The position numbers were made by a program, and so were the translations under genes. From assembly GCF_026619435.1 (NCBI RefSeq), contig NZ_JAOVZQ010000001.1:1433501-1497500 (forward strand): DNA of 64,000 nt, given 5' to 3'. Positions within the stretch are counted from its first letter, which is position 1. Each line of letters starts with the position of its first letter. The notes beneath the pieces are model-generated. The model ran no database searches and had not been told where the DNA came from. It was given only the letters and a program-made list of their open reading frames with translations. The DNA comes from Hoeflea ulvae. GTDB lineage: Bacteria; Pseudomonadota; Alphaproteobacteria; Rhizobiales; Rhizobiaceae. Shown piece after piece: positions 23,505-44,822 of the stretch.

Positions 23505-23562
23505 CGGCTTCTCCCATAAAGGTCCGGGTTGATCCGGAGGAATTCAGGCGGTCAAGCCAAGT

Positions 23563-24543: not shown

Positions 24544-24555
24544 GATCTCTCCTCC

Positions 24556-26061: not shown

Positions 26062-26450
26062 GTGTTGTCTCCGGGAAGATATTTGCGGATCGAGCTGGCC
26101 TTGGGGCTCAGTTCGGGGTCGATGTCACGCATCTCGAGTGACAGCATGAAGGAAGATGTGGCCATGACGTCGGCGCAGAACGCTTCCGCCGCGGCGAAGA
26201 TATGCTTCGTGGCCTGTTTCTTGACCTCGTCCGGCCGTCCGGCACGCAGCCGTACGGAGATGTCGAGGAATGCGTGATCCGGATTGCCGTCGGCGATGAC
26301 CCAGTGGTCGCAGGCGGTCGCGCGGACCCGGATGCCTGCCTGGACAAAAACACCGGTTTCCATCGCAGCGTCACGAATGACCACCAGAAGATCGGCAATG
26401 TTCAGCCTGTCCTCGAGATTGGCGGAATAGTCGACGTGGAAATGCGGCAT
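26058..26450 (-). CDS. hpaF: 5-carboxymethyl-2-hydroxymuconate delta-isomerase
   Basis: A 130-residue CHMI-family protein beginning MPHFHVDYSANL, with the N-terminal Pro after Met that acts as general base in this tautomerase-like fold. It isomerises 5-carboxymethyl-2-hydroxymuconate. It is first in the operon hpaF-E-D-FAH-H-I, with GGGAGGAG before the ATG, and faces hpaR across a 96-bp regulatory gap. Confidence 0.9.
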   Translation of the reverse strand: MPHFHVDYSANLEDRLNIADLLVVIRDAAMETGVFVQAGIRVRATACDHWVIADGNPDHAFLDISVRLRAGRPDEVKKQATKHIFAAAEAFCADVMATSSFMLSLEMRDIDPELSPKASSIRKYLPGDNT

Positions 26451-27835: not shown

Positions 27836-29302
27836 GTGAGCGAGGCCAGAAAGATCGCGGAGACAGCCATTGCTGATGTCGTGAATGATCTTCGCGGCAT
27901 CGTTGGCGCCGCTCATGTTTTCACCGGTGCCAGCGACATGTCCGCCTATCTGACTGACTGGACGAAGCACTATTTCGGTATGGCAATCGCCGTTGTACGG
28001 CCTGCCGATGTGCAGCAGGTCTCGGCAATCGTGAAACTGTGCGGCGCGGCCGGCATCGCCATTGTTCCGCAAGGCGGCAACACCGGCCTGGCCGGAGGCG
28101 GGGTGCCGTCCGCGGCCCGTCCTTCCATCGTCCTGTCGCTTTCCCGCATGACAACCATCCGCGAACTCCATGAAGCAGGCCGTACTGTCGTGGCTGAGGC
28201 CGGTGTGGTGCTCGAAATTCTGAAGGACCATGCGTCCGCCCACGGGCTTCTGTTTCCCCTGAGCTTCGGCGCAAAGGGCAGTTGCACCATTGGCGGCAAT
28301 CTTGCGACAAATGCCGGCGGATCCAACGTCGTGCGCTACGGCAATACCGGGGAACTCTGCCTCGGCATCGAGGCGGTGTTGCCGGACGGGTCGATCTTCA
28401 ACGGGCTGACCGGCCTGCGCAAGGACAACACCGGCTATGATCTGAAGGATTTGCTGATAGGTGCAGAGGGTACCCTCGGCATCATCACCGCAGCCGTGTT
28501 CAAGCTCTCTCCCCAGCCGCTGACCCAAGTGACGGCCTTTCTCTCGATGGCCTCCGTCGATGCCGCCCTTCATGCCCTCAACCTGATCCAGGACCGGACC
28601 GGCCAGTCCGTCGAGGCCTTCGAATATCTGCCGCAACCGGTCTTGAGTGCGATCGGAAAGGCTTTTCCGGCCCTGAAATCGCCGCTGCAAGGCCCGGTGG
28701 AAACCGGGGTGCTCCTGGAGGTCGGATCAAGCCGTGTGTCGGACGCGCGAACTGACGAGGCCGGGGCCAACCATCTGACCTCGGAGCTTCTCATCCTGTT
28801 TGAAGAACTGATGGAGTCCGGCGACATGATCGATGCCGTGGTCGCCCAGTCGGAACAGCAGCGCGCCGATCTGTGGCACATGCGCGAATCGGTGCTGGAA
28901 TCGATCATGGCCTATGGGCCGTCCTACCATTTCGACATCTCGCTGCCGCTGGCGCGGATTTCCGGCTTTCTCGAGGCGATGGACGCGTCCGCCGCAGCCC
29001 TGGGTTTCGAAACGCTCACCATCGGCCATCTCGGCGACGGCAATCTGCACTATGCGCTGGTGAGCCAGGACCAGGACACCTGGAACGCACTGCCGCTCGA
29101 AGAAGCCAAGGCGAGGGCGTTCGACCTGCTCAAGCAGCTCAACGGCTCCTTCAGCGCCGAACACGGAATCGGGCAGAGCAAGCTCGATGTCATGCGCGCG
29201 CTGAAAGAACCGGCGCAGCTAGATGCCATGCGCGCAATCAAGCGGGCGCTTGACCCGCAGGACATCATGAATCCGGGCAGGCTCATTCCGACAGCGGAAT
29301 GA
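27836..29302 (+). CDS. FAD-binding (VAO/GlcD-type) D-2-hydroxyacid dehydrogenase
   Basis: A 488-residue flavoprotein of the FAD_binding_4 plus FAD-oxidase_C type. FAD-binding motifs are VPQGGNTGLAGGGVP and TIGGNLATNAGG; the C-terminal cap holds TIGHLGDGNLHYAL and GSFSAEHGIGQSK, and the end (DPQDIMNPGRLIP) is typical of D-lactate, D-2-hydroxyglutarate and glycolate dehydrogenases. The GTG start at 27836 follows GGTGGGGAG; the ATG two bases before is followed directly by a stop. The substrate is unknown. It overlaps no gene and is followed 44 bp later by the secreted MBL protein. Confidence 0.88.
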   Translation: MSEARKIAETAIADVVNDLRGIVGAAHVFTGASDMSAYLTDWTKHYFGMAIAVVRPADVQQVSAIVKLCGAAGIAIVPQGGNTGLAGGGVPSAARPSIVLSLSRMTTIRELHEAGRTVVAEAGVVLEILKDHASAHGLLFPLSFGAKGSCTIGGNLATNAGGSNVVRYGNTGELCLGIEAVLPDGSIFNGLTGLRKDNTGYDLKDLLIGAEGTLGIITAAVFKLSPQPLTQVTAFLSMASVDAALHALNLIQDRTGQSVEAFEYLPQPVLSAIGKAFPALKSPLQGPVETGVLLEVGSSRVSDARTDEAGANHLTSELLILFEELMESGDMIDAVVAQSEQQRADLWHMRESVLESIMAYGPSYHFDISLPLARISGFLEAMDASAAALGFETLTIGHLGDGNLHYALVSQDQDTWNALPLEEAKARAFDLLKQLNGSFSAEHGIGQSKLDVMRALKEPAQLDAMRAIKRALDPQDIMNPGRLIPTAE

Positions 29303-29346
29303 CCGCCAGGGCCGCTTCGGCGGCGCAGCGAAACGGGAGGTTGATC

Positions 29347-30354
29347 ATGCACAACTCATATGCCCAGTCCCCTGGGGCAGCGATGACCGGAGTGTTCAGG
29401 ACAATGCCGGGCCTCGCCCTGGCCGCAGCCATGATGGTGACGGCGGCGCCGTTCCAGGCCTCGGCGCAACCGCTGTTCGATGGCTGTCCGTCAGGCCCGA
29501 TCCTGGAGCGCTTCACCGATTTCGGACGCAGCGGCAAGATGCCGCCGGATCTGGGCAAATGGCTCAACGATGCTGATGCACAGAAGGTCGAGCCATGGAA
29601 ACCTTTCGACAATGTCGATTACGTCGGTGTCTGCTGGGTCTCTGCCTGGCTGGTCCACACCGATGAGGGTAGCGTGCTGATCGATACGCTCTATGGCCCT
29701 TTCATCGGCCAGTTGATCGACAATCTCAAAGCCACCGGCACGGATTTCGCCGACATCAAATATGTGCTGATGACGCATGGACATTTCGACCATGTCGGGG
29801 GCGCGGCTGCGCTCAAGCCGCTGCTGCCCAATGCCAAATTCGTCATGACGCAGGGCGGTTGGGACGAGGCCATCGAATCGGCCAAGAAGTCGGAAGCCAC
29901 GCCCCGCGCCTGGGAGATGATCGAGCAGGATGTGGTGGTCGAAGATGGCGACACCATCGAGCTTGGCGGCAACAGCTTCAAGGTGATCGAGACGCCGGGC
30001 CACACCTGGGGAACGGCATCCTATCTCTATGACGTCACGGATGGCGACCAGACCTATCGCGCCATCACCATCGGCGGCCTCGGCCTCAACGCAATCGACG
30101 GTCCGCCCCAGGTGGAAGCCTATATCGAAAGCGTCGACCGGGTGCGCAACATCGTCGAAAGTGGCGATGACCGCGTCGAAGTCCATCTCACCACCCACGG
30201 ATTTTCCAACGATCTCGATGAAAACCGCCAGAAGCATCTGGCCCGGAAGGCCGGAGAGCCGAACATTTTCGTCGACCCGCAGGCGCTGCTCAATCAGGTC
30301 GCGACGCTGCGCGCGGGCGCGGTCGAGCGGCTGGAAATCGAGAAGGCAAAATAG
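29347..30354 (+). CDS. Secreted metallo-beta-lactamase-fold hydrolase
   Basis: A 335-residue protein with a Sec signal region (hydrophobic LALAAAMMVTAAPFQASA, residues ~22-40) and an MBL domain. The zinc motif is MTHGHFDHVGG, with later ligands in ETPGHTWGT and LTTHGFS. It may be a periplasmic lactonase or esterase, which would suit a neighbouring hydroxyacid dehydrogenase (lactone opening, then oxidation), but this is inference. Start 29347 follows GGGAGG; an in-frame upstream start would lack a signal peptide at the terminus. It lies in the GntR-controlled unit. Confidence 0.85.
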   Translation: MHNSYAQSPGAAMTGVFRTMPGLALAAAMMVTAAPFQASAQPLFDGCPSGPILERFTDFGRSGKMPPDLGKWLNDADAQKVEPWKPFDNVDYVGVCWVSAWLVHTDEGSVLIDTLYGPFIGQLIDNLKATGTDFADIKYVLMTHGHFDHVGGAAALKPLLPNAKFVMTQGGWDEAIESAKKSEATPRAWEMIEQDVVVEDGDTIELGGNSFKVIETPGHTWGTASYLYDVTDGDQTYRAITIGGLGLNAIDGPPQVEAYIESVDRVRNIVESGDDRVEVHLTTHGFSNDLDENRQKHLARKAGEPNIFVDPQALLNQVATLRAGAVERLEIEKAK

Positions 30355-30385: not shown

Positions 30386-30422
30386 CAACAATAATTGTTC
30401 ATTGACATAACAATTATTGTTG
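30386..30422 (+). promoter_or_regulatory. MarR-type operator/promoter of the TRAP-aldehyde dehydrogenase operon
   Basis: A perfect 14-bp inverted repeat (CAACAATAATTGTT 30386-30399, mirrored 30409-30422) has a 9-bp spacer that holds TTGACA (30402-30407), a -35 element. The 26 bp from 30392 to 30417 match 36766-36791 at 25 positions; that second copy precedes the enoyl-CoA hydratase/MarR unit. One repressor, most simply the MarR at 37750-38226, should control both. Confidence 0.82.
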
Positions 30423-30431
30423 GTCACAGTT

Positions 30432-30694
30432 TGGGATGAGGAGTGCCGCCCGGACGGCCGCCACTTGCGAAAGCGGGGAGGCCTGAATGAGGAATTCGCA
30501 TCGCGGTTTGCAGCCTGCGGCACCAGCATCGGGGCCGGTTTTTTAGAGGAACAGGTGCTCCCGCCAAAGCTTTCGGCAGGTGCCAGGAAACCGCTTCGGA
30601 TCGAAACGCCAGGCACTGCACGACAGATCGGGAACGGGGAATCGACCCCGTTCCTTTACGAAAGGGTCCGCGGACCCGAAGGAGGAGTAAGACA
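30432..30694 (+). other. Long 5' leader with two hairpins before the TRAP binding-protein gene
   Basis: About 260 bp separate the operator from the TRAP gene. No credible gene is seen there. Near its end are a 9-bp hairpin (GGAACGGGG 30631-30639, CCCCGTTCC 30646-30654, followed by TTTACG) and, 10 bp on, a perfect 14-bp palindrome GGGTCCGCGGACCC (30664-30677). This ends just before the ribosome site GGAGGAG (30681-30687). The pair could attenuate transcription or gate translation of the operon. Confidence 0.5.
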
Positions 30695-31738
30695 ATGAGC
30701 ATGTTGAAAATGTCACGTCGTCGGGTTCTGGGCGGGATGGCTGCGGTCCTTGCTGCCCCGGCTTTCGTCAGGAATGCCAAGGCCGCCGAAGTCACCCTGC
30801 GCCTGCACCATTTTCTGCCGCCGGTTGCACCGATGCATTCCAAGTTCTTCGTGCCATGGGCACAGGAAATCATGGATGCGTCCAACGGCGCCATCGAAGT
30901 GCAGATATTCCCGGCAATGCAGCTGGGTGGCAAGCCGCCGCAGCTGGCTGACCAGGTCAAGAACGGCATCGTCGATATCGCCTGGGCGCTGCCGACCTAT
31001 ACGCCCGGCCGCTACCCGGTTGCCGAAACCATGGGCTTGCCCTTCATGGTCACCAATGCCGAAAAGACTTCCGTTGCGCTGCACACGCTGATGGATGAGT
31101 TCGGCGGCGATGAATATGCCGGCATGAAGAACCTTGCCTATTGGAGCCATGACGGCGGTAAGCTGCACATGCGCGACAAGGCTATCCGCACCGCGGCCGA
31201 CCTTGAAGGCATGAAGATCCGCAGCCCCAACTCGGCAATGGGCGAACTGCTCGAATCAATGGGCGCCGAGCCGGTGTTCTTCCCGGTCACCGAAATGGTT
31301 GTCGGTCTGAGCAACGGCGTCATCGACGGCTGCTGCCTGCCCTATGAAGTGGTGCCGCCGTTCAAGCTGCAGGAACTGACCAAGGTCTCCTGCGAAGCGG
31401 CTGCCGGCGCGCGCGGCCTGTATGCCAACACCAACACGTTGCTGATGAATCAGGCCTCATACGAAGGACTGTCAGACGATCTGCGTGGCGTCATCGATGC
31501 CAACAGCGGAATCGCCCTGTCCCAGCGCATCGGCAAGACCTTCGACGAGTTCGAAGCGGTCGGCCGCGGAATCGTCGAGAAGAACGGCAACGAGATTGTC
31601 GAAATTTCCACCGACGAGATCGCCAAGTGGCAGGAAGCCTCCAAGCCGGTCTATGCCAACTGGCAGAAGACGCTCGATGATGCCGGCCATGATGGTGCGG
31701 CGATCATTGCACGCGCCAACGAACTGCTGGACAGCTGA
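30695..31738 (+). CDS. TRAP transporter solute-binding protein (DctP family)
   Basis: A 347-residue DctP-family protein with a twin-arginine-type leader (MSRRRVLGGMAAVLAAPAF). Family features are LRLHHFLPPVAPMH, GMKIRSPNSAMGELLESMGAEPVFFP with the arginine that binds ligand carboxylates, and LSNGVIDGC. The ligand should be a carboxylate; the neighbouring CoA ligase and aromatic genes suggest a hydroxycinnamate-like acid. First gene of a five-gene unit (binding protein, small and large permease, aldehyde dehydrogenase, ThDP enzyme). Ribosome site GGAGGAG. Confidence 0.88.
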   Translation: MSMLKMSRRRVLGGMAAVLAAPAFVRNAKAAEVTLRLHHFLPPVAPMHSKFFVPWAQEIMDASNGAIEVQIFPAMQLGGKPPQLADQVKNGIVDIAWALPTYTPGRYPVAETMGLPFMVTNAEKTSVALHTLMDEFGGDEYAGMKNLAYWSHDGGKLHMRDKAIRTAADLEGMKIRSPNSAMGELLESMGAEPVFFPVTEMVVGLSNGVIDGCCLPYEVVPPFKLQELTKVSCEAAAGARGLYANTNTLLMNQASYEGLSDDLRGVIDANSGIALSQRIGKTFDEFEAVGRGIVEKNGNEIVEISTDEIAKWQEASKPVYANWQKTLDDAGHDGAAIIARANELLDS

Positions 31739-31748
31739 ACATGTCCGG

Positions 31749-32279
31749 TTGGTCCAGTCTCTGGCCGGCGCAGCAGGGGGGATATTCCCCCTGCACACCT
31801 GGCTGCTGCGACTCGCGACGCTATCGGGCGCGCTGGGTGGCGCCGTCATCCTCACGGTTGCGCTGATTGTCACGGTGTCGGTTCTCATGCGCAATATCGG
31901 CCTGCGCGGTATTTCAGGCGATTTCGAGCTTGTGCAGATGTCTTGCGTCTATGCTGCCGGATTGTTCCTGCCGCTGTGTCAGCTCAACAAGGGCCACGTC
32001 ATGGTCGACCTCTTCACCAACTGGTTGCCCGGACCGGTTGTCGCGCGGATCGACCAGTTCTGGACGTTTGTCTTCGCCATCGCCTGGGCCTTTCTGTTTG
32101 TCTACATGTTTCGCGGCATGGAAGAAATCCGGGCCTATGACGACCGGTCGATGCTTTTGAAAATTCCGATGTGGTGGGGATTCATCCCGTCCATCATCGG
32201 GGCAGGATTATCGAGCTTCATTGCTCTGGCTCAAACTTTTTTCTGGCGTGATGTGGTCGCCGGGCCGACTGGACACTGA
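31749..32279 (+). CDS. TRAP transporter small permease (DctQ family), start uncertain
   Basis: About 177 residues with four hydrophobic segments (LSGALGGAVILTVALIVTVSV; MSCVYAAGLFLPLC; FWTFVFAIAWAFLFVYMF; IPSIIGAGLSSFIALAQ) and the family motif QLNKGHVMVDLF. No in-frame ATG lies near the expected start. TTG 31749 and CTG 31791 (after GGGGGG) are possible. An ATG at 31741, three bases after the binding-protein stop, is in another frame and would join this one if the G-run at 31776-31781 had seven bases rather than six. The stop is followed by two bases and then the dctM ATG. Confidence 0.8.
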   Translation: MVQSLAGAAGGIFPLHTWLLRLATLSGALGGAVILTVALIVTVSVLMRNIGLRGISGDFELVQMSCVYAAGLFLPLCQLNKGHVMVDLFTNWLPGPVVARIDQFWTFVFAIAWAFLFVYMFRGMEEIRAYDDRSMLLKIPMWWGFIPSIIGAGLSSFIALAQTFFWRDVVAGPTGH

Positions 32280-32281
32280 GC

Positions 32282-33601
32282 ATGGATCCCACACTTCTTT
32301 CCGTCATCATGGTCGTGGTTCTGCTCGGCGCCATCGTGCTTCGGGCGCCGATCGGCCTGGCCATGGGCCTCGTCGGCGCGGCCGGCTATGCGGCCCTTTC
32401 CAGCACGGCCGGTCTTCAGGCCTATATAGCCTCGGCCTGGCCGGACCGGTTCCTGTCCTATGAACTGGCCATTGTGCCGCTGTTCATTCTGATGGGCAAT
32501 CTCGCCACCCGCACCGGCATTTCGGCAGCCCTGTTTTCTGCGTCCAATGCCTGGATCGGCCATTTCCGCGGCGGACTGGCCATGGCCTCCGTGGCCGGTT
32601 GCGCCATGTTCGGCGCGATTTCCGGATCTTCCATCGCCACCGCCTCGACCATGGCGCGCGTGGCGCTGCCGGAAATGCGCAAGCACAAATATTCGGATGC
32701 TTTGGCGTCCGGATGCCTGGCTGCCGGCGGCACGCTGGGGATTCTCATTCCTCCCTCGATCGTGCTGATCATCTATGCGCTGCTGACCGAGCAGAACATC
32801 GTGAAACTGTTTCTGGCCGCCACCTTGCCGGGCCTGCTGGCGATCGTCGGCTTCCTGATCACCATCGCCATCTATGTCCGGCTCTATCCCGAGGAAGGCC
32901 CGTCGCAAGAGCCGGCCAGCATGCGCACCCGGATCAGGAGTCTGGGCGATGTCTGGCACATTGTCGGCATTTTTGTCGTCGTGCTCGGCGGTATCTATGG
33001 CGGATTTTTCACGCCTGCGGAGGGCGCCTCCGTCGGCGTTGTGCTGACGGCACTTGCCGGCTTTGTCGCCCGGCAACTGACGCTCGAGGCGGTGATCACC
33101 AGCCTGATCGACACCGCGGCCGCAAGTGCGATGATCTTCGTCATCATCTTCGGCGCCGACCTGTTCAATGTCGCCATGGCGCTGTCGCGGATGCCGACGG
33201 CGCTGGCCGACTGGTTCATTGCCGCCGACATCGCACCGATGGTGGTGCTTTTGTGCATCGTTGTCTTCTATCTGGTGATGGGCTGCGTCATGGACAGCCT
33301 TTCGATGATTCTGCTGACGGTGCCGGTGTTCTTCCCGACTGTGATGAGCCTTGATTTCGGGTTGATGCCGGAACAGCAGGCAATCTGGTTCGGCATCCTG
33401 ACGCTGGTGGTCGTCGAGGTCGGCATGATCACGCCGCCGGTCGGCATGAACCTGTTCATCATCTCGGCCATCGCCAAGGATATCCCCACACGCCAAATCT
33501 TCCGGGGCACCATTCCCTTTGTCATCGCGGAACTCGTCAGGATCGTGTTGCTGATCTCGTTCCCGTGGCTGAGCTACTGGCTGGTGTCGGTGTGGAATTG
33601 A
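32282..33601 (+). CDS. TRAP transporter large permease (DctM family)
   Basis: A 439-residue protein of usual DctM length with about twelve hydrophobic segments. Motifs SGSSIATASTMARVALPEMRKH, AAGGTLGILIPPSI and the later EVGMITPPVGMNLF are intact. It forms the sodium-coupled translocation unit with the DctQ protein. It starts two bases after dctQ and is followed by aldehyde dehydrogenase. Confidence 0.92.
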   Translation: MDPTLLSVIMVVVLLGAIVLRAPIGLAMGLVGAAGYAALSSTAGLQAYIASAWPDRFLSYELAIVPLFILMGNLATRTGISAALFSASNAWIGHFRGGLAMASVAGCAMFGAISGSSIATASTMARVALPEMRKHKYSDALASGCLAAGGTLGILIPPSIVLIIYALLTEQNIVKLFLAATLPGLLAIVGFLITIAIYVRLYPEEGPSQEPASMRTRIRSLGDVWHIVGIFVVVLGGIYGGFFTPAEGASVGVVLTALAGFVARQLTLEAVITSLIDTAAASAMIFVIIFGADLFNVAMALSRMPTALADWFIAADIAPMVVLLCIVVFYLVMGCVMDSLSMILLTVPVFFPTVMSLDFGLMPEQQAIWFGILTLVVVEVGMITPPVGMNLFIISAIAKDIPTRQIFRGTIPFVIAELVRIVLLISFPWLSYWLVSVWN

Positions 33602-33662
33602 GACTTCGGGCGAAAACGCTGTAAAACCGCGCATGTGTCTGGCGCAAGGAGGAGAAGTGTTG

Positions 33663-35078
33663 ATGACCTATTCACTGACAATCGACGGCAAGGCGGTCGA
33701 CACGCAAGAGACGTTCGACGTGATCAATCCGGCGACCGGCGACGTTGTCGCGGCCTGCCCGCAGGGCTCGGTCGCGGATATGGACAATGCGGTGGCTGCA
33801 GCCAGGCGATCCTTTCCGGCCTGGGCAGCGACGCCGGCTTCGGAGCGTCAGGAGGCGCTGGGCAAGATTGCCGACCTTATTGAAGCCAACCAGCAGGAAC
33901 TGGCGGCACTGATCACCGCCGAACAGGGCAAGCCGCAGGCTGGCCCCGGCGCGCCTTTCGAGGTTGGCGGCTGCATCGCCTGGACCCGCGTGACGCAAGG
34001 GCTTTCGACCGGACCCGAGGTTCTGATCGACAGTGACGAGGAACGGGTGGAGCTGATCCGCGAGCCGGTCGGTGTTGTGGCCTCTATCACGCCCTGGAAC
34101 TGGCCACTGATGATCGCGGTCTGGCACATCATGCCGGCGCTGAGAGCTGGCTGCACGGTGGTGATGAAACCATCGCCCTATACGCCATTGTCTACCTTGA
34201 AGTTGGTGCAATTGATCAACGAGGCGGGTATCCTGCCGGCCGGTGTCCTCAACGTGGTGACCGGTGATGCCGAGGTTGGTGACCGCATCTCCAGCCATCC
34301 CGATATCGACAAGATCGCCTTCACCGGCTCGATCGCCACCGGACGCCGGATCATGGAACGGGCAGGCTCGACGCTCAAGCGGCTGACGCTGGAGCTTGGC
34401 GGCAATGACGCCGGCATCGTGCTGCCCGGCACCGACATGAGCGGCCGCATGGAAGACCTGTTCTGGGGTTCGTTCATCAATGCCGGCCAGACCTGCTCCT
34501 GCCTGAAGCGACTTTATGTGCATGACGAAGACTATGACGCCGTCTGCGAGGGGCTTGCGGAATTCGTAGGCGGGATCAAGGTCGGCAATGGCGCCGAGCC
34601 CGATACGCTGATCGGGCCGCTGTCGAACAAGATGCAGTTCGACAAGATTGTCGAGCTGGTCGAAGATGCCCGCGCCAAGGGCGCGCGCATCCTGACCGGT
34701 GGCGAGACGCCGAACGGCAAGGGCTATATCTACCCGTTGACCATTATTGCGGACGCGACTGAAGACATGCGCGTCGTTGCCGAAGAGCAATTCGGTCCGA
34801 TCCTGCCGGTGATCCGCTATACCAATCTCGGTGACGCAATCGCTCAGGCCAATGCGCTGGAAGTAGGCCTCGGAGCATCGGCTTGGGGCAATGACCCGGA
34901 AGAAGCAGCCAAGGTTGCGCGCAAGCTGGTTGCGGGCACACGCTGGGTCAACCGGCACGGGGTTCTCAACCCGACGGTTCCCATGGGCGGGGTGAAGCAA
35001 TCGGGCATCGGCGTCGAATTCGGCGAAGAAGGCTTGCGCGAATACACCACCGTCCAGATTCTCAGCATGGCAAAGTAG
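33663..35078 (+). CDS. NAD(P)-dependent aldehyde dehydrogenase
   Basis: A 471-residue aldehyde dehydrogenase. SITPWNWPLMIAVWHIMPAL, LELGGNDAGIV (catalytic Glu), NAGQTCSCLKR (catalytic Cys) and MGGVKQSGIGVEFG are present. Nearest family character is the benzaldehyde/aldehyde-dehydrogenase DhaS type without a clear substrate. An aromatic aldehyde made from side-chain shortening is plausible in context. ATG 33663 follows GGAGGAG; in-frame GTG 33657 and TTG 33660 are alternatives. Nine bases separate it from the ThDP enzyme. Confidence 0.88.
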   Translation: MTYSLTIDGKAVDTQETFDVINPATGDVVAACPQGSVADMDNAVAAARRSFPAWAATPASERQEALGKIADLIEANQQELAALITAEQGKPQAGPGAPFEVGGCIAWTRVTQGLSTGPEVLIDSDEERVELIREPVGVVASITPWNWPLMIAVWHIMPALRAGCTVVMKPSPYTPLSTLKLVQLINEAGILPAGVLNVVTGDAEVGDRISSHPDIDKIAFTGSIATGRRIMERAGSTLKRLTLELGGNDAGIVLPGTDMSGRMEDLFWGSFINAGQTCSCLKRLYVHDEDYDAVCEGLAEFVGGIKVGNGAEPDTLIGPLSNKMQFDKIVELVEDARAKGARILTGGETPNGKGYIYPLTIIADATEDMRVVAEEQFGPILPVIRYTNLGDAIAQANALEVGLGASAWGNDPEEAAKVARKLVAGTRWVNRHGVLNPTVPMGGVKQSGIGVEFGEEGLREYTTVQILSMAK

Positions 35079-35087
35079 GATGATCCA

Positions 35088-36713
35088 ATGACCCGCATGA
35101 CCACCGGCGAAGTAATGGCCAAGTCGCTCATTGCCAATGGCGTGGATACCGTCTTCGGCATTCCCGGCGCGCATATGTATGATTTCAACGATGCGATCGC
35201 GCGCGAAGCCGAAAGCATCCGCTTCATTCATACCCGCCATGAGCAGGGCGCGGGCTACATGGCCTATGGCTACGCGAAATCCACCGGACGGGTGGGCGCC
35301 TATACGGTGGTGCCGGGGCCGGGTCTTTTGAATTCCGGTGCAGCGCTCTGCACAGCCTATGGTGCGAACGCGCCGGTGATGTGCCTGACCGGCAACATCA
35401 TGTCGCATCTGATCGGGCAGGGCCGGGGACAGTTGCACGAATTGCCGGATCACCTAGGAACGCTCAAAGGGCTGACCAAATGGGCCGAGCGGATCAATCA
35501 TCCGACCGAGGCCGGGGCCGTGATGGGTGAGGGTTTCAAGCAGATGCTGTCGGGCCGTCAGCGGCCTGTCGGTATTGAAGCGCCGTGGGATGTGTTCGGC
35601 ATGGCGGCGGACGTCGACATGCCCGAGGCCGCGCAGCCAATCGCCGCTCCGCGTCCGGATCCCGAGGCGGTGGAAAAAGCCGCAGCACTGATCCGCGAAG
35701 CCAGCAACCCGATGATCATGCTCGGCTCCGGCGCCATTGGTGCGGAAGCCGAAGTTGCTGAACTGGCGCGGCTGCTGCAGGCGCCGGTCACTGCGCATCG
35801 CTCGGGCAAGGGCGTGTTGACGGATGATGACCCGCTTGCGCTGCTGCCGCCGGCGGCCTGGCATTACTGGCAGACGTGCGATCTGCTGATCGGCATCGGA
35901 TCGCGGCTGGAGCTGCAATATTTCCGCTGGCGCTGGATGCCCGAGGGGCTGAAGGTCGTGCGCGTCGATATTGATCCGACCGAGATGGTGCGATTGAAAC
36001 CCGATGTCGGACTGGTCACGGATTCCGCTGCCGGCGTCCGGGCATTGATTGACGAACTCAAGCGGTTGCCGGAGCGGGCTTCGCGCGAAGCCGAGCTTGG
36101 AAAGCTGAAAGAGGATGCCGTAGAGGCGCTGAGCAGCGTTCAGCCGCAGGAAGGCTATCTGCGGGTGATCCGCGATGTGCTGCCGCGCGACGGGTTCTTT
36201 GTCGAGGAAGTCTCCCAGGTCGGCTTTACCGCAAGGATGTGCTTCCCGGTCTATGCGGCAAGGCAATATGTCACCTGCGGCTATCAGGACAATCTCGGCT
36301 TCGGCTTCAACACCGCGCTGGGCGTGAAAGTCGGCAATCCCGACAAGGCGGTCGTGTCGGTGTCCGGCGACGGCGGCTTCATGTTCGGTGTACAGGAACT
36401 TGCGACAGCCAAGCAATTCAACATTGCCGTCGTGGCCATCGTCTTCAACAATTCGGCCTATGGCAATGTCCGCCGCGATCAGCAGACGGTATACGGCAAC
36501 CGGCTGCTCGGTGCGGATCTGGAAAACCCGGATTTTGTTGCCCTGGCCCAATCCTTTGGCGTCATGGCGATGAAAGCCGACAGCCCGGAAGATCTTCGCG
36601 GGAAACTGGCCGAAGCATTGCAGGCCAATGAGCCCGTGGTGATCGAAGTCAGCATTCCGCGCGGATCGGACACCTCGCCCTGGCCGTTCATTCATCCGGC
36701 GCCGTTGGCTTGA
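35088..36713 (+). CDS. Thiamine-diphosphate-dependent enzyme, acetolactate-synthase-like
   Basis: A 541-residue three-domain ThDP enzyme. The catalytic Glu lies in HTRHEQGAGYMAYGYA, and the cofactor motif GDGG...NN is seen in SGDGGFMFG and VFNNSAYGNVRRDQ. PGPGLLNSGAALCTAYGANAPV is of the acetolactate-synthase/carboligase type. It lacks the His pair region of benzoylformate decarboxylase (LHS after the Glu motif), so a simple MdlC call is not supported despite the adjacent aldehyde dehydrogenase. It could decarboxylate or ligate a 2-oxo acid. Last gene of the first MarR-controlled unit. Confidence 0.82.
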   Translation: MTRMTTGEVMAKSLIANGVDTVFGIPGAHMYDFNDAIAREAESIRFIHTRHEQGAGYMAYGYAKSTGRVGAYTVVPGPGLLNSGAALCTAYGANAPVMCLTGNIMSHLIGQGRGQLHELPDHLGTLKGLTKWAERINHPTEAGAVMGEGFKQMLSGRQRPVGIEAPWDVFGMAADVDMPEAAQPIAAPRPDPEAVEKAAALIREASNPMIMLGSGAIGAEAEVAELARLLQAPVTAHRSGKGVLTDDDPLALLPPAAWHYWQTCDLLIGIGSRLELQYFRWRWMPEGLKVVRVDIDPTEMVRLKPDVGLVTDSAAGVRALIDELKRLPERASREAELGKLKEDAVEALSSVQPQEGYLRVIRDVLPRDGFFVEEVSQVGFTARMCFPVYAARQYVTCGYQDNLGFGFNTALGVKVGNPDKAVVSVSGDGGFMFGVQELATAKQFNIAVVAIVFNNSAYGNVRRDQQTVYGNRLLGADLENPDFVALAQSFGVMAMKADSPEDLRGKLAEALQANEPVVIEVSIPRGSDTSPWPFIHPAPLA

Positions 36714-36765
36714 TGGCCTGAGCCCGGATGCGGAAATTGATCTTCACCAGAAGTAGGTAGTTTCG

Positions 36766-36791
36766 TAATTGTTCATTGACAGAACAATTAT
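36766..36791 (+). promoter_or_regulatory. Second copy of the MarR-type operator, before enoyl-CoA hydratase/MarR
   Basis: TAATTGTTC (36766-36774) and GAACAATTA (36782-36790) form an inverted repeat whose spacer plus first bases carry TTGACA (36776-36781). Over 26 bp it differs from 30392-30417 at one base. TATTTT at 36802-36807 is a possible -10 with a long spacer. It lies 147 bp before the enoyl-CoA hydratase gene, whose unit also encodes the MarR protein, so autoregulation is expected. Confidence 0.8.
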
Positions 36792-36937
36792 AAGTGTTCA
36801 CTATTTTGGCTGGAGAGAAACGCCATGTCCGTCATCTCGCCCGACGCACGAAGTGCCGCAGTCAGGATCGGTCTGGGTGACGCGGCGGCTCGCAGGGCCG
36901 CAGGACAGGCCGGCGACACGGCAATGCAAGGATCAAC

Positions 36938-37711
36938 ATGACAAAGTCCAGTGACATGCTGTTGGTGACGACCGATGGACCGGTTGCCACCCTGACCATG
37001 AACCGCCCGGCCAAGCGCAATGCCATGTGCGATGAGCTCCTTGCCGCACTCGAAGCCTTCTTCACTGCGCCGACCGAGGGTGTCCGGGCGGTTATTCTGA
37101 CCGGCACCGCCGGGCATTACTGTTCCGGCCTCGATCTGTCCGAGCATGTCTCGCGCGATGCCGAAGGCACCATGCGCCATTCCCGCAATTGGCACCGGGT
37201 GATGGACATCATCCAGTTCTCAGGCCTTCCGGTGGTTTCTGCCATGTTCGGCGCCGTCATCGGCGGCGGGCTGGAACTTGCCACATCAACCCATGTGCGG
37301 ATTGCCGAGCCTTCAACCATCTTCCAGCTGCCCGAAGGCATGCGCGGCATCTTCGTCGGCGGCGGCGCCACGGTTCGTGTTGGCCGCATCATTGGCTCTG
37401 ACCGGATGTGCGAGATGATGCTGACCGGGCGCAAGTACAATGCCGAGGAAGGTCTGGCGCTGGGGCTGACGCATTATGCCGTCGGTGACGGCGAGGCGAT
37501 GGCGCTGGCCCAGAAGCTGGCGACCCGGATTGCCAACAATGCCAGCCTGTCCAACTACATGATGATCCAGGCAATCAGCCGGATTTCCGACATGTCGAAA
37601 TCGGACGGGCTGTTCGCCGAAAGCCTCTGCGCTGCAGTCTCACAGACCAGCGCGGATGCCGAGGAAGGCCTGAAATCCTTCCTCGAAAAGCGCCGGCCGG
37701 TGTTCAGGTAG
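36938..37711 (+). CDS. Enoyl-CoA hydratase/crotonase-family protein
   Basis: A 257-residue crotonase. Both glutamates of true enoyl-CoA hydratases are present: E113 in GGGLELA and E133 in LPEGMRG; the oxyanion-hole regions are CSGLDLSEH and GAVIGGG. Feruloyl-CoA hydratase-lyases lack the first of these, so this enzyme looks like a hydratase and the pathway more like beta-oxidation than aldol cleavage. It would hydrate a hydroxycinnamoyl-CoA-like substrate made by the ligase at 38249. The marR gene follows after 38 bp. Confidence 0.87.
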   Translation: MTKSSDMLLVTTDGPVATLTMNRPAKRNAMCDELLAALEAFFTAPTEGVRAVILTGTAGHYCSGLDLSEHVSRDAEGTMRHSRNWHRVMDIIQFSGLPVVSAMFGAVIGGGLELATSTHVRIAEPSTIFQLPEGMRGIFVGGGATVRVGRIIGSDRMCEMMLTGRKYNAEEGLALGLTHYAVGDGEAMALAQKLATRIANNASLSNYMMIQAISRISDMSKSDGLFAESLCAAVSQTSADAEEGLKSFLEKRRPVFR

Positions 37712-37749: not shown

Positions 37750-38226
37750 ATGACAAAGCGCGCAACGGATCCAGCGGGAAAAGATGAACAACTGGCGCAA
37801 ACCCGGCTCCGCCAGTTTGTCGGCTATGAGATGAAGATGGCCTATCTGCTGATCCAGCAGGACATGCTGCGGATTCTCAAGCCCACTGGCCTCAGAATCG
37901 TGACATTTTCCGCCCTCGGTATCGTTGTCGAGAACCCGGACATTTCACAGACCCAGCTGGCGCAGGCGCTGCAGATCGAGCGATCCGGCGTGGTCGTCAT
38001 CGTTGACGAACTGGAAAATGCCGACCTGATCTCGCGCAACAAGGTTGAAGGCGACCGTCGCTCCTATGCGCTGCGGGCGACCCTGAAGGGCCGCAACCTG
38101 TGGAGCCGCACCGAAAAGCGCGTCCATGAACACGAAGACGGCATCCTGTCTGCCCTGTCCGGGGCGGAACGCGAGACGCTGAAATTGCTGCTCGGCCGCA
38201 TCATTGAAGACAATCGCAATCGCTGA
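37750..38226 (+). CDS. MarR-family regulator (probable CouR/FerR-like CoA-thioester sensor)
   Basis: A 158-residue MarR protein: VGYEMKMAYLLIQQDMLRILKP helix, SQTQLAQALQIERSGVVVIVDELENADLI recognition region and the wing NKVEGDRRSYALRAT. In Rhodopseudomonas palustris the MarR protein CouR sits with an enoyl-CoA hydratase and a CoA ligase and is released by p-coumaroyl-CoA; the arrangement here is the same. The two matching operators at 30386 and 36766 are its likely targets. ATG 37750 is preceded by CAGGAG. Confidence 0.85.
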   Translation: MTKRATDPAGKDEQLAQTRLRQFVGYEMKMAYLLIQQDMLRILKPTGLRIVTFSALGIVVENPDISQTQLAQALQIERSGVVVIVDELENADLISRNKVEGDRRSYALRATLKGRNLWSRTEKRVHEHEDGILSALSGAERETLKLLLGRIIEDNRNR

Positions 38227-38248: not shown

Positions 38249-40063
38249 ATGAAAGACACCACTACGGGGCTGACACTGGTTCCTCATGCCGTCGCGATCG
38301 AACGGCGCACGGACGACATGGTGATGACGAGCAGGACCCCGTCTGATCCGGTGGTCTCCAACACCGGAGTCTGGCTCGACAAATGGGCCGACGAGGCTCC
38401 ATCGCGAATCTATCTTGCCGAACGGTCGGGCGCGGGATGGCGCGAGATGGGCTATGCGGAGGTCCGCGACGCGGTGCGTGCCATTGCCTCGAGCCTGGCG
38501 GCGCGCGGCATGGGCGCCTCCACTCCGATTGTCATTATGTCCGGCAACAGCATTGACCACGCGCTGCTCTCGCTCGGCGCGCAATATGCCGGTGTGCCCA
38601 CCGTGCCGCTGGCCGAGCAATATTCGCTGATAACCGAAGCCCATGAACGGCTTGTCTATGTGCTCGACAAGATCAAGCCGGCCATGGCCTTCGTTGATGA
38701 TGCAGCGCGCTATGGTGCTGCGATATCGCGCCCCGAACTGCAGGGTGTCGAGATCGTCGCAAGCCGGACCGAGGGCGCGCCGGTCGCGGTCACATCCTTT
38801 GCCGAGCTGTTGCGCGGTGATGCCGGCATTGACCTTGCCAGTGTCCACGCGAAGGTCGGTCCCGACACGCTGGCCAAGGTGCTGTTCACCTCCGGCTCCT
38901 CGTCCGAGCCGAAGGGTGTTTTGACCACCCAGCACATGATGTGCGCCAACCAGGCGCAGATGAGCAGCGTGCTGCCCTTCCTCAAGGAACGGCCACCGCG
39001 GATCATGGACTGGCTGCCGTGGAACCATGTCTTTGGCGGCACCCACAACACGCTGATGATGCTGGCGCATGGCGGCAGCCTCTATATCGACAATGGCAAG
39101 CCGACGAATTCCGGTTTCCCGCTCACGGTTCAAAACATCATCGACAGGCCCGGCACACTGTCCTTCAACGTGCCCGTCGGCTTCGGCATGCTGGTCCACG
39201 AGATGGAAACCAACCTGGCGCTGCGCAAGGCCTATTTCGGCGAGCTGGATCTGCTGTTTTACGCCGGCGCCTCGCTGCCGCAGGATGTCTGGACCCGGCT
39301 TGAGGAAATGGCGATCGAGATCCGCGGCAAGCTTCCCTTGATGATCTCGAGCTGGGGCATGACCGAGACCGCCCCGGCAACGCTGATGGTGCATGAGCCG
39401 ATCGGCCGCTCCGGCGTGATCGGCGTGCCGCTGCCGGGAACCGAAATCAAGTTGATCCCGGATGACGAGATGCGCTGCGAACTCCGCGTCAAGGGCCCCA
39501 ATGTCATGACCGGCTATTGGGAAGATGCAGAAAAATCCGCAGCGGCCTTTGACGAGGAAGGTTTTCTGATCACCGGTGACGCCGTGCGTTTCGTCAATCC
39601 TGACGACCCTGAGCGCGGGCTGATCTTCGATGGCCGGGTGTCGGAGGATTTCAAGCTTCTGACCGGCACATGGGTGCAGGCCGGAAGGCTGCGGCTCGAT
39701 GCGCTCGAGCATCTGCGCGGGCTGGTCCAGGACGTGGTCATCTGTGGTCATGACCGCGGCGAGATCGGCCTGTTCATCTTCCCCAAACCGGGCCAGGTGC
39801 ATGGCGACAATAGGTCTGAAGGCGCGGTGATTGATCCCGAGCTTCAGGCGGCCGTCGAAACCCGGCTGCGGGCCATGTCCAAAACTTCTGCCGGATCGGC
39901 CAAACGCATCACCCGTGCCATCATTCTTGCCGATCCGCCAAGCCTGAAAGATTCGGAAATGACGGACAAGGGGTCACTCAACGTCCGCAAGATCATCACC
40001 CGCCGTGCCGACCTTCTCGAACGGCTCTACGACAATGAAGATCCGGCTCTGATCCGGGTGTGA
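38249..40063 (+). CDS. Feruloyl-CoA-synthase-like acyl-CoA ligase
   Basis: A 604-residue ANL-superfamily adenylating enzyme. The phosphate loop is LFTSGSSSEPKGV, followed by DWLPWNHVFGGTHN, SSWGMTETAPA, and ITGDAVRFVNPDDPERGLIFDGRVSEDFKL. The N-terminal pattern (GVWLDKWADEAPSRIYLAE, AEQYSLI) matches feruloyl-CoA synthases. It would activate a hydroxycinnamate to its CoA thioester with ATP, producing the probable MarR effector. It follows marR by 22 bp with GGGAGG upstream, and amidohydrolase follows after 8 bp. Confidence 0.85.
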   Translation: MKDTTTGLTLVPHAVAIERRTDDMVMTSRTPSDPVVSNTGVWLDKWADEAPSRIYLAERSGAGWREMGYAEVRDAVRAIASSLAARGMGASTPIVIMSGNSIDHALLSLGAQYAGVPTVPLAEQYSLITEAHERLVYVLDKIKPAMAFVDDAARYGAAISRPELQGVEIVASRTEGAPVAVTSFAELLRGDAGIDLASVHAKVGPDTLAKVLFTSGSSSEPKGVLTTQHMMCANQAQMSSVLPFLKERPPRIMDWLPWNHVFGGTHNTLMMLAHGGSLYIDNGKPTNSGFPLTVQNIIDRPGTLSFNVPVGFGMLVHEMETNLALRKAYFGELDLLFYAGASLPQDVWTRLEEMAIEIRGKLPLMISSWGMTETAPATLMVHEPIGRSGVIGVPLPGTEIKLIPDDEMRCELRVKGPNVMTGYWEDAEKSAAAFDEEGFLITGDAVRFVNPDDPERGLIFDGRVSEDFKLLTGTWVQAGRLRLDALEHLRGLVQDVVICGHDRGEIGLFIFPKPGQVHGDNRSEGAVIDPELQAAVETRLRAMSKTSAGSAKRITRAIILADPPSLKDSEMTDKGSLNVRKIITRRADLLERLYDNEDPALIRV

Positions 40064-40071: not shown

Positions 40072-40950
40072 ATGGTAGATTTTTCAAAAGTCCGCGCAAT
40101 CGACTTCCATACCCATGCGGAAGAATCCTGCGGCTGCCACGCCGATGACGGCTATGACGAGCTGCAGTCGACAATGGCCAAATATTTCGGTGCGCCCTGG
40201 CAGCACCCGCCGACCATTCCCGAGACGGCTGCGCATTACCGCGAGATGAACATCGCGGCGGTGATCTTCCCGGTCGATGCCGAGCGCGAAACCGGCTATC
40301 GCCGTTACAACAACTACGAGGTCGCCGAGGCCTGCGCCGAGGAAAGCGACATCCTGATCCCCTTCGCCTCGATCGATCCGCACAAGGGCAAGCTTGGGGC
40401 CCGTGAGGCGCTCGATCTGGTCAAGAACCACAACATTCAGGGCTTCAAGTTCCACCCGACCATGCAGGGCTTCTACCCCAATGACCGCATGGCCTATGAT
40501 CTTTACGAGGCGATTGCCGAAACCGGTAAGCCGGCGCTGTTTCACACTGGCCAGACCGGTGTCGGCTCCGGCATGCGCGGCGGCAATGGCATGCGGCTGA
40601 AATACTCGAACCCGATGTATATCGACGATCTGGCGGTCGATTTCCCCGACATGCCGATCATCCTCGCGCACCCTTCTTTCCCCTGGCAGGAAGAGGCGTT
40701 GTCGGTCGCCACCCACAAGCCCAATGTCTATATCGATCTCTCCGGCTGGTCGCCGAAATATTTCCCGCCGATCCTGGTGCGCTATGCCAACACGCTTTTG
40801 AAGAAGAAGATGCTGTTTGGCTCCGACTGGCCGATGATCGCACCGGAAAAATGGCTCAATGCCTTCGACAAGGCCGAGTTCAAGGACGAGGTGCGACCAC
40901 TGATCCTGAAGGAAAATGCCATGCGGCTGCTGGGCGTTTCCGAAAGCTGA
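40072..40950 (+). CDS. Amidohydrolase-2-family metal-dependent hydrolase (candidate beta-ketoacyl-CoA hydrolase)
   Basis: A 292-residue TIM-barrel metallohydrolase. Metal ligands appear in IDFHTHAEE (H13, H15), ALFHTGQTG, ILAHPSFPW and LFGSDWPM (D252). In the p-hydroxycinnamate pathway of Rhodococcus, an amidohydrolase-related enzyme (CouO) cleaves the aryl beta-ketoacyl-CoA to aryl acid and acetyl-CoA in place of a thiolase. The position between a feruloyl-CoA-synthase-like ligase and an acyl-CoA dehydrogenase suggests the same job here. A decarboxylase function, also common in the family, is an alternative. Confidence 0.82.
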   Translation: MVDFSKVRAIDFHTHAEESCGCHADDGYDELQSTMAKYFGAPWQHPPTIPETAAHYREMNIAAVIFPVDAERETGYRRYNNYEVAEACAEESDILIPFASIDPHKGKLGAREALDLVKNHNIQGFKFHPTMQGFYPNDRMAYDLYEAIAETGKPALFHTGQTGVGSGMRGGNGMRLKYSNPMYIDDLAVDFPDMPIILAHPSFPWQEEALSVATHKPNVYIDLSGWSPKYFPPILVRYANTLLKKKMLFGSDWPMIAPEKWLNAFDKAEFKDEVRPLILKENAMRLLGVSES

Positions 40951-40995: not shown

Positions 40996-42567
40996 ATGCT
41001 GCCCTTCAAAGCCCCCGTCGATGACATCCTTTTCTCGCTGCTGCGCGTGGCGCGCGCCAGCCGTGTCGAGGGGCTCGATGTCGAGCTGTTGCGGGAGATC
41101 ATCGGTCACTTCGCAAGCTTTGCCGAAGAAGTCATCGCGCCGCTGGACGAACCCGGCGACAGGCAGGGCTGCCGGCTGGAAAACGGACGGGTGCGCATGC
41201 CTTACGGGTTCCGTGAGGCCTATGCGGACTATGCCGCGCAAGGCTGGCCGGGACTGACCCTTGCCGAAACCCATGGCGGCCAGGCGCTTCCCGGCGTGGT
41301 TCTGGCCGCAATCTCCGAGATCTTTTCCGGCGCCTGCCATTCCCTGCAGATGGTGACCGGGCTGGTTCCGGGGGCTGCCCGCACGATCGAACGCTTTGGC
41401 ACTGAGGCGCAGAAGGCGCGTTATCTGCCGGCGCTCGCCTCGGGCGCATGCCTCTCGACCATGTGCCTGACCGAGCCCGGTGCCGGGTCCGATCTGTCGA
41501 TGGTGCGGACCAGGGCGATTAAGGGTGGCAAAGGCTGGAAACTCAGTGGCGAAAAGATCTTCATCTCGGGTGGCGATCAGGATCTCTCCGACGATATTCT
41601 GCATCTGGTTCTGGCCCGCACCGGAGCGCCGGAAGATGGCGTCAAGGGCCTGAGCCTGTTCCTGTGTCCGTCGCAATCAGATGGGGTGCGCAATGCGGTC
41701 AGCGTCATCCGGATCGAGGACAAGATGGGGCTGCACGCCTCGCCAACCTGCCAGCTGCTGTACGACAGTGCCGAGGCGGAGCTGCTGGGCGGTGAAGGCG
41801 AGGGGCTGCACGCCATGTTCACCATGATGAACCATGCCCGTCTCGATGTTGCCCTGCAGGGTGTTGCCCATGCGTCACGCGCCCATGACATTGCCAGTGC
41901 CTATGCGGCAGAACGGCGGCAGGGCCGCAAACCCGATGGCGCACCAGCGGTGCTGAGCGATCATGCCGACATTCGCCGCATGCTCGACACCCAGAGATCG
42001 CTTGCGCTCGGCGCCCGCGCAATGTGCCATATCGCGCTGGTCGAGCTGGAACTGGGAGGCCGTCCGCAACTGATCGAGTTCCTGACCCCGCTGTGCAAGG
42101 TCTTTGCCACCGAGGCAGGCATGCGATCGGCCGATCTCGGCATCCAGGTTCTGGGCGGCTACGGCTATCTGCACGAGTACCGGGTGGAACAGACTTTCCG
42201 CGATGCGCGCATCACCGCCATCTATGAAGGGGCGAACGGCATTCACGAACTCGGGCTGGCGACCCGGGGTCTCAGCGTGCACAAGGGCGCCGGCGCCGAT
42301 GCCTTTGGAAACCTGATCACCGAACTGGCCGAAGACGCCCCTGATGTCATGGGGCAGCTTGAGGCCTGGCGTGCTCTGCGCGCTCAGGTGGTTGCCAGCG
42401 ACCAGCCTGCGGAGCTTGCCCACGAGTTTGCCCAGGCAAGTGCGCAGCTGTTTTTTCGCGCGGTCTGGAACCGCATGGCCACCGGCCGGTCAGACTTTGC
42501 CGATGCGGCCGAAATGGCCAGGCTTTCCGGTTTCGTGGCCCGCAAGCTCAAGGGGTCGTGGTTTTAG
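40996..42567 (+). CDS. Acyl-CoA dehydrogenase (long form)
   Basis: A 523-residue FAD acyl-CoA dehydrogenase, longer than the usual ~380-residue type. TMCLTEPGAGSDLSMVRTRA, EKIFISGGDQDL, GEGEGLHAMFTMMNHARL and IYEGANGIHELGLATRGL (catalytic Glu) are characteristic of the larger FadE/DmdC-like group. It could oxidise a dihydro-hydroxycinnamoyl-CoA to the enoyl-CoA, letting phenylpropanoates enter the same route. Last gene of the MarR unit; it converges on the sulfatase gene, 36 bp apart. Confidence 0.85.
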   Translation: MLPFKAPVDDILFSLLRVARASRVEGLDVELLREIIGHFASFAEEVIAPLDEPGDRQGCRLENGRVRMPYGFREAYADYAAQGWPGLTLAETHGGQALPGVVLAAISEIFSGACHSLQMVTGLVPGAARTIERFGTEAQKARYLPALASGACLSTMCLTEPGAGSDLSMVRTRAIKGGKGWKLSGEKIFISGGDQDLSDDILHLVLARTGAPEDGVKGLSLFLCPSQSDGVRNAVSVIRIEDKMGLHASPTCQLLYDSAEAELLGGEGEGLHAMFTMMNHARLDVALQGVAHASRAHDIASAYAAERRQGRKPDGAPAVLSDHADIRRMLDTQRSLALGARAMCHIALVELELGGRPQLIEFLTPLCKVFATEAGMRSADLGIQVLGGYGYLHEYRVEQTFRDARITAIYEGANGIHELGLATRGLSVHKGAGADAFGNLITELAEDAPDVMGQLEAWRALRAQVVASDQPAELAHEFAQASAQLFFRAVWNRMATGRSDFADAAEMARLSGFVARKLKGSWF

Positions 42568-44256: not shown

Positions 44257-44762
44257 TCGGCGGGGTCTCTTTCCAGAATTGTGTCGACGGGGCGGCGCAG
44301 CAAATTTTCCAGCCGGTCGAGAAAATCGACAAAGGTGGCAATCTCCGCGTCTGAAAATTCTTCTTTCAAGGCGTCACGCCGCTGTTTCATCACCGGGGCA
44401 GCGGTTTCATAGGCAATTCGTCCCGCCTCGGCCAGTGCGACGACAACCTGGCGGCCGTCAATGCTGTCGCGGGTCATGGTGACAAACTGTTTCTTGTGCA
44501 TCGCCGGCAGGGCCCGGCTCAGTTGCGAATGGTCGGTGCGCTGGATTTCGGCCAGGTCACGGATCGTCATGGGACCCGCTTCATACAGGTCCCACAGCAC
44601 CCGCCATTCCACCACGGACAGTCCGCCGGCGCGCTGCAACACGCGCTGTCCCTGCAGCCGGGATGCGGCATAGGTGGCGGGCAAACGCGAAAACAGGTTC
44701 TGTTGCTCGCGGGCACGCCGCTGCCTGATCCGTTCGGCCTGTCGCTCTGATGGTTGTTTCAT
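44253..44762 (-). CDS. MarR-family transcriptional regulator
   Basis: A 169-residue MarR protein (GLSVVEWRVLWDLYEAG, MTIRDLAEIQRTDHSQLSRALPAM, wing TRDSIDGRQVVVAL). It is co-translated with the sulfatase and divergent from the TAXI transporter, so it likely controls both. ATG 44762 is chosen for GGGGAG upstream; an upstream in-frame start adds ten residues. The effector is probably the transported or desulfated compound. Confidence 0.86.
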   Translation of the reverse strand: MKQPSERQAERIRQRRAREQQNLFSRLPATYAASRLQGQRVLQRAGGLSVVEWRVLWDLYEAGPMTIRDLAEIQRTDHSQLSRALPAMHKKQFVTMTRDSIDGRQVVVALAEAGRIAYETAAPVMKQRRDALKEEFSDAEIATFVDFLDRLENLLRRPVDTILERDPAE

Positions 44763-44783
44763 TGCTGCTCCCCCACGGGGCCG

Positions 44784-44822
44784 AGTAGACACCGAAAAAA
44801 AATGCGTGACAAGTCATATAAT
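44784..44822. promoter_or_regulatory. Divergent promoter region marR-sulfatase / TAXI transporter
   Basis: On the minus strand TTGTCA (44812-44807) and TCTACT (44789-44784) are 17 bp apart and point at marR. On the plus strand a perfect TATAAT (44817-44822) points at the transporter, with no good -35. TGACAAGTCATATAATATC around 44807-44825 is the likely regulator-binding area; no long palindrome is present. Confidence 0.4.

Follow-up and report, generated by a model that had tools for sequence, protein, structure and literature searches.

Among the described systems closest to the one reported here, CouR of Rhodopseudomonas palustris controls uptake genes of both the tripartite ATP-independent periplasmic (TRAP) and the ATP-binding cassette types, the TRAP transporter being TarPQM (accessible text of PMC3610893). 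In Rhodococcus jostii RHA1, according to the accessible part of PMC4737184, a single MarR-family protein, also named CouR, serves four promoters, and its boxes overlap their -35 elements. For Agrobacterium fabrum C58, the available portion of PMC7797058 describes HcaR as a MarR repressor of itself and of the genes for feruloyl-coenzyme A (CoA) synthase, enoyl-CoA hydratase, a dehydrogenase and the thiolase step. Here we analyze a window of 64,000 nucleotides of the genome of the marine bacterium Hoeflea ulvae (contig NZ_JAOVZQ010000001.1, positions 1,433,501 to 1,497,500 of the forward strand), in which one 26-bp inverted-repeat box occurs twice, in front of a TRAP transporter unit and in front of a catabolic unit that encodes a MarR repressor. 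Very probably both boxes are operators of one regulon, with the MarR protein repressing both units until a hydroxycinnamoyl-CoA releases it. That one MarR acts at both boxes, as the original prediction held, is strongly supported by sequence: box and repressor co-occur, the spacing of the box is specific, the TRAP genes lie inside the operon in relatives, and the window DctM falls in one clade with such in-operon proteins.

The two boxes stand where they had been placed, at 30392-30417 and 36766-36791, and agree at 25 of 26 bases; both read TAATTGTTCATTGACA-T/G-AACAATTAT, the single T versus G difference lying directly 3' of a central TTGACA. The predicted core, TAATTGTTCATTGACA, is present in both; even with 3 mismatches allowed it recurs nowhere else in the window, whereas shuffled windows lead one to expect 0.10 matches. 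A scan of the whole genome (5.1 Mb), which the original prediction had proposed, found this 16-base core without mismatch only twice, nowhere with 1 or 2 mismatches, and in ten places with 3 (the reversed control pattern had 3 matches). The inverted arms described earlier are likewise found in both boxes, but the dyad is larger than had been said. Operator 1 (30386-30422, forward strand), which holds the first 26-bp box, has perfect 14-bp arms, CAACAATAATTGTT and AACAATTATTGTTG, with 9 bp between them; operator 2 (36766-36791, forward strand) has 9-bp arms, TAATTGTTC and GAACAATTA, with 7 bp between them. Box 1 lies 277 nt upstream of the ATG of dctP, and box 2 lies 146 nt upstream of the ATG of the enoyl-CoA hydratase (ECH) gene. 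A description of box 1 as two independent 13-bp palindromes (AACAAT-W-ATTGTT) was unsupported, since the genomes G002 and G013 keep the whole dyad yet lose the local palindromes, a comparison of three sequences only.

The gene orders behind the boxes, all on the forward strand, are those read originally. Box 1 precedes dctP (30695-31738, PF03480), a tarP-like gene for a TRAP solute-binding protein; dctQ (31737-32279, PF04290) and dctM (32282-33601, TIGR00786 above its cut-off), for the small and large TRAP membrane subunits; an aldehyde dehydrogenase gene (33633-35078, PF00171), which reached no cut-off among the 25 of 43 NCBIfam models listed; and a gene for a thiamine diphosphate (ThDP)-dependent enzyme of the PRK08266 subfamily (35088-36713, 855 bits against a cut-off of 571). 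Box 2 precedes the genes for an ECH/crotonase of the PRK08150 subfamily (36938-37711, 339 bits against 232), the CouR-like MarR repressor (37750-38226), a CoA ligase (38249-40063, PF00501), an amidohydrolase (40072-40950, PF04909) and an acyl-CoA dehydrogenase (40996-42567, PF00441/PF02770/PF02771). The best model for the ligase, PRK12582, scores 634 bits, under its cut-off of 777, and relatives of the ligase carry the name feruloyl-CoA synthase in their source annotations. The solved structures nearest to DctP are those of TRAP binding proteins for aromatic acids, among them TarP with ferulate, caffeate and coumarate. As far as sequence can tell, DctP, DctQ and DctM make up a transporter with a binding protein of the TarP type. 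The nearest named relatives are from Hoeflea.

In the mechanism that we propose, a MarR dimer would bind the dyad ATTGTT-N9-AACAAT and cover the central TTGACA, blocking RNA polymerase at both promoters. A hydroxycinnamic acid such as p-coumarate, ferulate, caffeate or a similar compound would enter the cell and be converted by the CoA ligase to its CoA thioester, which would release MarR from the operators, so that TarPQM-like uptake and catabolism by ECH, ligase, amidohydrolase and acyl-CoA dehydrogenase would be induced together. Because marR lies inside the repressed operon, MarR would also repress itself.

The distribution of the box within the genus follows that of the repressor. In a set of 18 Hoeflea genomes, with MarR scored at E <= 1e-20 and the box at up to 1 mismatch, the two agree in all 18, both being present in six (G000, G001, G002, G008, G011 and G013) and neither in the other 12 (one-sided Fisher test, 5e-5, for loci that are linked). 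G008 is only 75% complete, and some other genomes of the set are also incomplete; further matches at 3 mismatches occur in G000, G004 and G011. The box stands 5' of the ECH unit, or of the short-chain dehydrogenase/reductase (SDR) gene that may head it, in 6/6 genomes with the MarR, and 5' of dctP in 3/3 genomes with this dctP (E <= 1e-100). In G013 the TRAP and MarR units lie on the contig pair C7/C13; the two units are probably adjacent there as well, because both contigs terminate within the ThDP gene, a further piece of which is on contig C9. H. alexandrii DSM 16655 likewise has both units, on two contigs of its assembly. In G001, where this dctP was not found genome-wide at E <= 1e-100, an aldehyde dehydrogenase match of only 162 residues lies 5' of the ThDP gene (L022, 7795-8280).

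A second MarR-family protein is encoded in the window at 44253-44792, 7.5 kb off, and would be the most obvious candidate if another regulator bound the boxes. Its distribution does not track the box: at E <= 1e-30 it occurs only in G000, G002 and G010, leaving four box genomes without it, and G010 has no box. Its neighbors, a sulfatase and a TAXI protein, map in only 1 of the 80 loci around relatives of the CouR-like MarR described below (L150), which is box-less. We therefore rejected it, and regulation by a protein other than the CouR-like MarR is very improbable.

Those 80 loci (L072-L151, the best 80 of 91 that passed, from named genomes) provide a wider comparison; four of them, L072-L075, are of Hoeflea type. 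ATTGTT-N9-AACAAT occurs exactly in 19 of the 80 and with up to 1 mismatch in 39, whereas twenty other spacings between 0 and 20 gave 0-1 loci exactly and 0-5 with up to 1 mismatch. Leaving out the four Hoeflea-type loci, the dyad is still found in 17/76 exactly and in 35/76 at up to 1 mismatch. The best of 29 other half-site permutations at spacing 9 was found in 12 loci, and the median for 629 other combinations of permutation and spacing was 1 locus. TTGTTA-N7 (29 loci) and TGTTAT-N5 (26 loci), which came next after the dyad, represent its palindrome shifted in register, a fuller form being ATTGTTAT-N5-ATAACAAT. None of the 50 ATTGTT-N9-AACAAT sites falls inside a mapped gene, and each is at most 400 bp upstream of a mapped gene of the cluster. 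By these counts, 9 bp is the spacing specific to the loci around relatives of this MarR. On a quick MarR tree of 79 proteins (the window protein and those of 78 of the 80 loci, L131 and L146 having been dropped by a length filter), box presence requires 8 changes, against a mean of 26.8 for shuffled labels and with 0/500 shuffles as low, a result to which near-copies contribute. In the window's 25-member group, L079, L085 and L092 have a box at 2 mismatches 5' of an SDR gene. In seven Thalassospira loci and in L097, L098 and L104, two units come with two boxes; multi-unit regulons therefore recur.

The same collection bears on the idea that the repeats have no operator function and amount to no more than a strong, conserved promoter or a recent duplication. 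Each box does contain TTGACA, as originally stated, and this hexamer is kept in position in all nine Hoeflea boxes. The candidate -35 elements (30402-30407 and 36776-36781) lie in the spacers of operators 1 and 2 and are followed at a 17-bp spacing by weak candidate -10 elements, CACAGT (30425-30430) and CACTAT (36799-36804), all on the forward strand; the inverted repeats thus overlap the predicted promoters of both units. However, TTGACA is present in just 11 of 31 distinct boxes while the inverted arms stay (the arms were the search seed). The arms vary symmetrically, at two mirrored positions in three TRAP boxes and as ACTGTT/AACAGT in L079 and L085, and, beyond the dyad, the sequences around the two window boxes show no relationship by eye. 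A promoter or duplication without operator function is hardly credible on this evidence.

No terminator-like site was called in the stretch from box 1 to dctP, and a search of the window against Rfam at the gathering threshold gave no match and hence no known RNA or riboswitch at box 1. The final 60 nt of the long dctP leader (window 30630-30690; L073, L054) show conservation across the three Hoeflea TRAP loci. By eye they appear to contain two possible hairpins just 5' of the ribosome-binding site, and a compensating change is seen in the second. Each of those three Hoeflea genomes has the pattern once, and G015 has a 2-mismatch match.

Further targets were sought with the dyad across the genome, which at up to 2 mismatches has 93 matches per strand, compared to 13 for a reversed control that is unfair because it contains TAA and TTA, which are rare in coding DNA. 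Besides the two boxes, 2 exact sites and 15 at 1 mismatch were listed. Twelve of these 17 were inspected; nine, including both exact ones (L043 and L044), fall within an open frame of 100 or more amino acids, and three (L047, L050 and L053) are outside such frames, and no third regulon target was named from these 12. One further site on the 1-mismatch list overlaps the left flank of box 1.

The operon arrangement in relatives also links the two units. The TRAP genes stand between ECH and marR in 26 of the 80 loci, and 18 have the mapped order SDR-ECH-dctPQM-marR-ligase-amidohydrolase-acyl-CoA dehydrogenase, in most cases behind a box; loci with this full order include those of Celeribacter, Rhodobacter, Martelella and Poseidonocella. 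In a DctM tree of 45 rows chosen from the mapped ones, with a root for drawing only, the window DctM belongs to a clade of 20 with support of 100/100, the rest of which consists of two other Hoeflea TRAP loci and 17 DctMs, 17/17 of them encoded between ECH and marR. Given this nesting, the TRAP genes of the window are of the MarR-operon type; in Hoeflea they now form a separate unit headed by a copy of the same operator. As to direction, we infer that the TRAP genes moved out of the operon here and not into it elsewhere.

The window ECH unit lacks a gene found in its Hoeflea counterparts. An SDR gene lies between the box and ECH in 5/5 other Hoeflea units and there is none in the window, where 146 nt separate box 2 from ECH (36792-36937), with a 38-codon frame at 36825-36941, and the bases adjoining box 2 and those adjoining ECH still align with relatives. 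The SDR presumably corresponds to the phenylhydroxypropionyl-CoA dehydrogenase that acts at this step of the A. fabrum pathway, as set out in the accessible text of PMC7797058. The window cluster lacks a candidate gene for that dehydrogenase, a component of beta-oxidative deacetylation; outside the cluster, the closest SDR paralogue in the genome shares 51% identity across 223 of 255 residues. Because the A. fabrum pathway uses a dehydrogenase where the window unit has no SDR, the strain may call on a paralogue at this step or form an aldehyde instead.

The likeness of the window MarR to CouR, on which the original prediction drew, holds at the level of sequence and fold: CouR is its nearest solved relative, with 33% identity over 141 residues and a root mean square deviation of 1.5 Å to structure 6c2s. 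Several other MarR proteins lie within 1 Z unit of CouR, so that Z alone does not separate them, and CouR has the best E-value. The likeness does not extend to the operator sequence, which differs from the R. jostii CouR box and from the Saro_0803 site, or to both of the arginines implicated in CoA occlusion in R. jostii CouR, only one of which is kept. Structure 6c28, which by its title is CouR with p-coumaroyl-CoA, is of a protein that we take to be that of R. palustris, as fits the Cogan 2018 reference; it has an equivalent of neither R. jostii Arg36 nor Arg38. The best NCBIfam model for the window MarR is the Saro_0803 family, at 74.2 bits, and membership in that family is ruled out by a curated cut-off of 200.

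These features also bear on whether the boxes might be operators of this MarR with an inducer that is no CoA thioester, either the free aromatic acid or an intermediate formed later. Saro_0803 is itself released by resveratrol (PMC10046596, accessible text), and the incomplete pair of arginines in the window MarR could be read in the same sense. On the other hand, the nearest solved relative was solved with a CoA thioester, CouR, FerC and A. fabrum HcaR all respond to such thioesters, and among mapped genes a CoA ligase gene directly follows marR in 50 of the 80 loci. An inducer other than a CoA thioester is therefore rather unlikely, and, to judge from CouR, HcaR and FerC as analogues, a thioester formed by the ligase is a plausible releasing signal.

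Several observations weigh against regulation of both units by a single CoA-responsive MarR. The -10 candidates are weak and were not called by a consensus scan. The co-occurrence of box and MarR on its own could reflect joint gain and loss, because the two are physically linked in the ECH unit. G001, G008 and G011 keep the ThDP gene, but neither a TRAP gene (E <= 1e-100) nor a second box (at most 1 mismatch) was found in them, and thus the ThDP enzyme is not always part of the regulon. Among the 80 loci, 41 MarR relatives, mostly the more distant ones, have no site at up to 1 mismatch, which means that not every member of the family shares the operator, and an unrelated control, TTTGAT-N18-ATCAAA, was found in 16 at up to 1 mismatch (0 exact), more than other controls of that sort. 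Finally, R. jostii CouR Arg36 and Arg38 align to Arg49 and Val51 of the window MarR.

A different question is whether the TRAP-aldehyde dehydrogenase-ThDP unit, under the same MarR, handles another substrate, with aryl-alpha-keto acids passing to homoprotocatechuate (hpa) genes and two pathways being joined. Such a split is compatible with one MarR at both operators and is possible, if doubtful. HpaD and HpaE score above their cut-offs at 23566-26061; in G011 hpaFEDG begins about 750 bp from the ThDP gene, in divergent orientation; structural relatives of the ThDP enzyme include benzoylformate decarboxylase; and R. palustris TarP also binds 4-hydroxyphenylpyruvate (PMC3610893, accessible text). 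Against this, neither enzyme of the unit reaches an equivalog cut-off among the models listed, and the chemistry is conjectural. The hpa cluster occupies 21853-26450 on the reverse strand and is followed by a gene for a GntR regulator, and a link of these neighboring genes to arylacetate catabolism is speculative.

A more elaborate version strikes us as improbable. One thioester signal would join two plant-phenolic branches, hydroxycinnamates being degraded through CoA and the split-off unit decarboxylating aryl-alpha-keto acids and feeding them into the hpa pathway, with an extended complex at box 1. The dyad of box 1, with arms of 14-15 bp that change symmetrically between species, hints at such an extended or cooperative repressor complex. 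If true, a two-branch regulon would fit compounds like rosmarinic acid, whose two halves are caffeate and dihydroxyphenyllactate and which occurs in the seagrass Zostera.

Other genes adjoin the two units. Just 5' of box 1 (27836-30354), a gene for a GlcD-like flavin adenine dinucleotide-dependent oxidase overlaps a gene of B3-type metallo-beta-lactamase fold, whose 422 bits against a cut-off of 500 do not make it a called lactamase; both genes also precede the TRAP unit in G002 and G013. On the 3' side of the ECH-marR unit (42604-45959) are the sulfatase, the second MarR and the TAXI-type binding protein. The named models for the sulfatase are under their cut-offs, and a tie to sulfated coumarate (zosteric acid) is a guess.

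A literature search gave no prior description of this regulon, with figure text and most subscription papers outside its coverage; neither PMC12442348, in its accessible part, nor the seagrass papers listed had any bearing on it. The analysis offers ATTGTT-N9-AACAAT as a testable operator for a wide group of CouR-like repressors of marine alphaproteobacteria, suggests a hydroxycinnamate role for the TRAP transporter and for several unnamed enzymes, and gives a case in which units joined in one genus and apart in another retain the same operator.

Compared with known systems, the predicted regulon shares with that of R. palustris CouR a TRAP transporter of the TarPQM kind (PMC3610893, accessible text) and differs in having marR inside the operon and in its amidohydrolase and acyl-CoA dehydrogenase genes. 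The window DctP is 28-44% identical to the TarP binding proteins (Csal, Sse and Rhp) and to marine metagenome relatives, a likeness from which its ligand is predicted. The design of R. jostii RHA1, one MarR at several promoters, matches, and there too the regulon reaches transport, couT, the gene of one CouR-controlled promoter, being a transport gene. The R. jostii CouR box, cATTGA-N5-TCAATg, is a different sequence from the window dyad, and of the two R. jostii arginines, which contact DNA and the CoA phosphate, the window MarR keeps one. A. fabrum HcaR governs a dehydrogenase gene that the window lacks, and the accessible text on it mentions no TRAP unit (PMC7797058). The Novosphingobium aromaticivorans protein Saro_0803 is also a MarR, with resveratrol as ligand and a repeat, GCAATA------TATTGC, that overlaps the -10 element (PMC10046596, accessible part). 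The aldehyde dehydrogenase and the ThDP enzyme have no part in the published regulons, as the accessible texts describe them. The window MarR is nearest to CouR among these repressors. Switches of this kind have already been described in R. palustris, R. jostii and A. fabrum; Hoeflea is thus a confirmation and extension rather than a surprise, a new and well-supported case of the CouR/HcaR kind.

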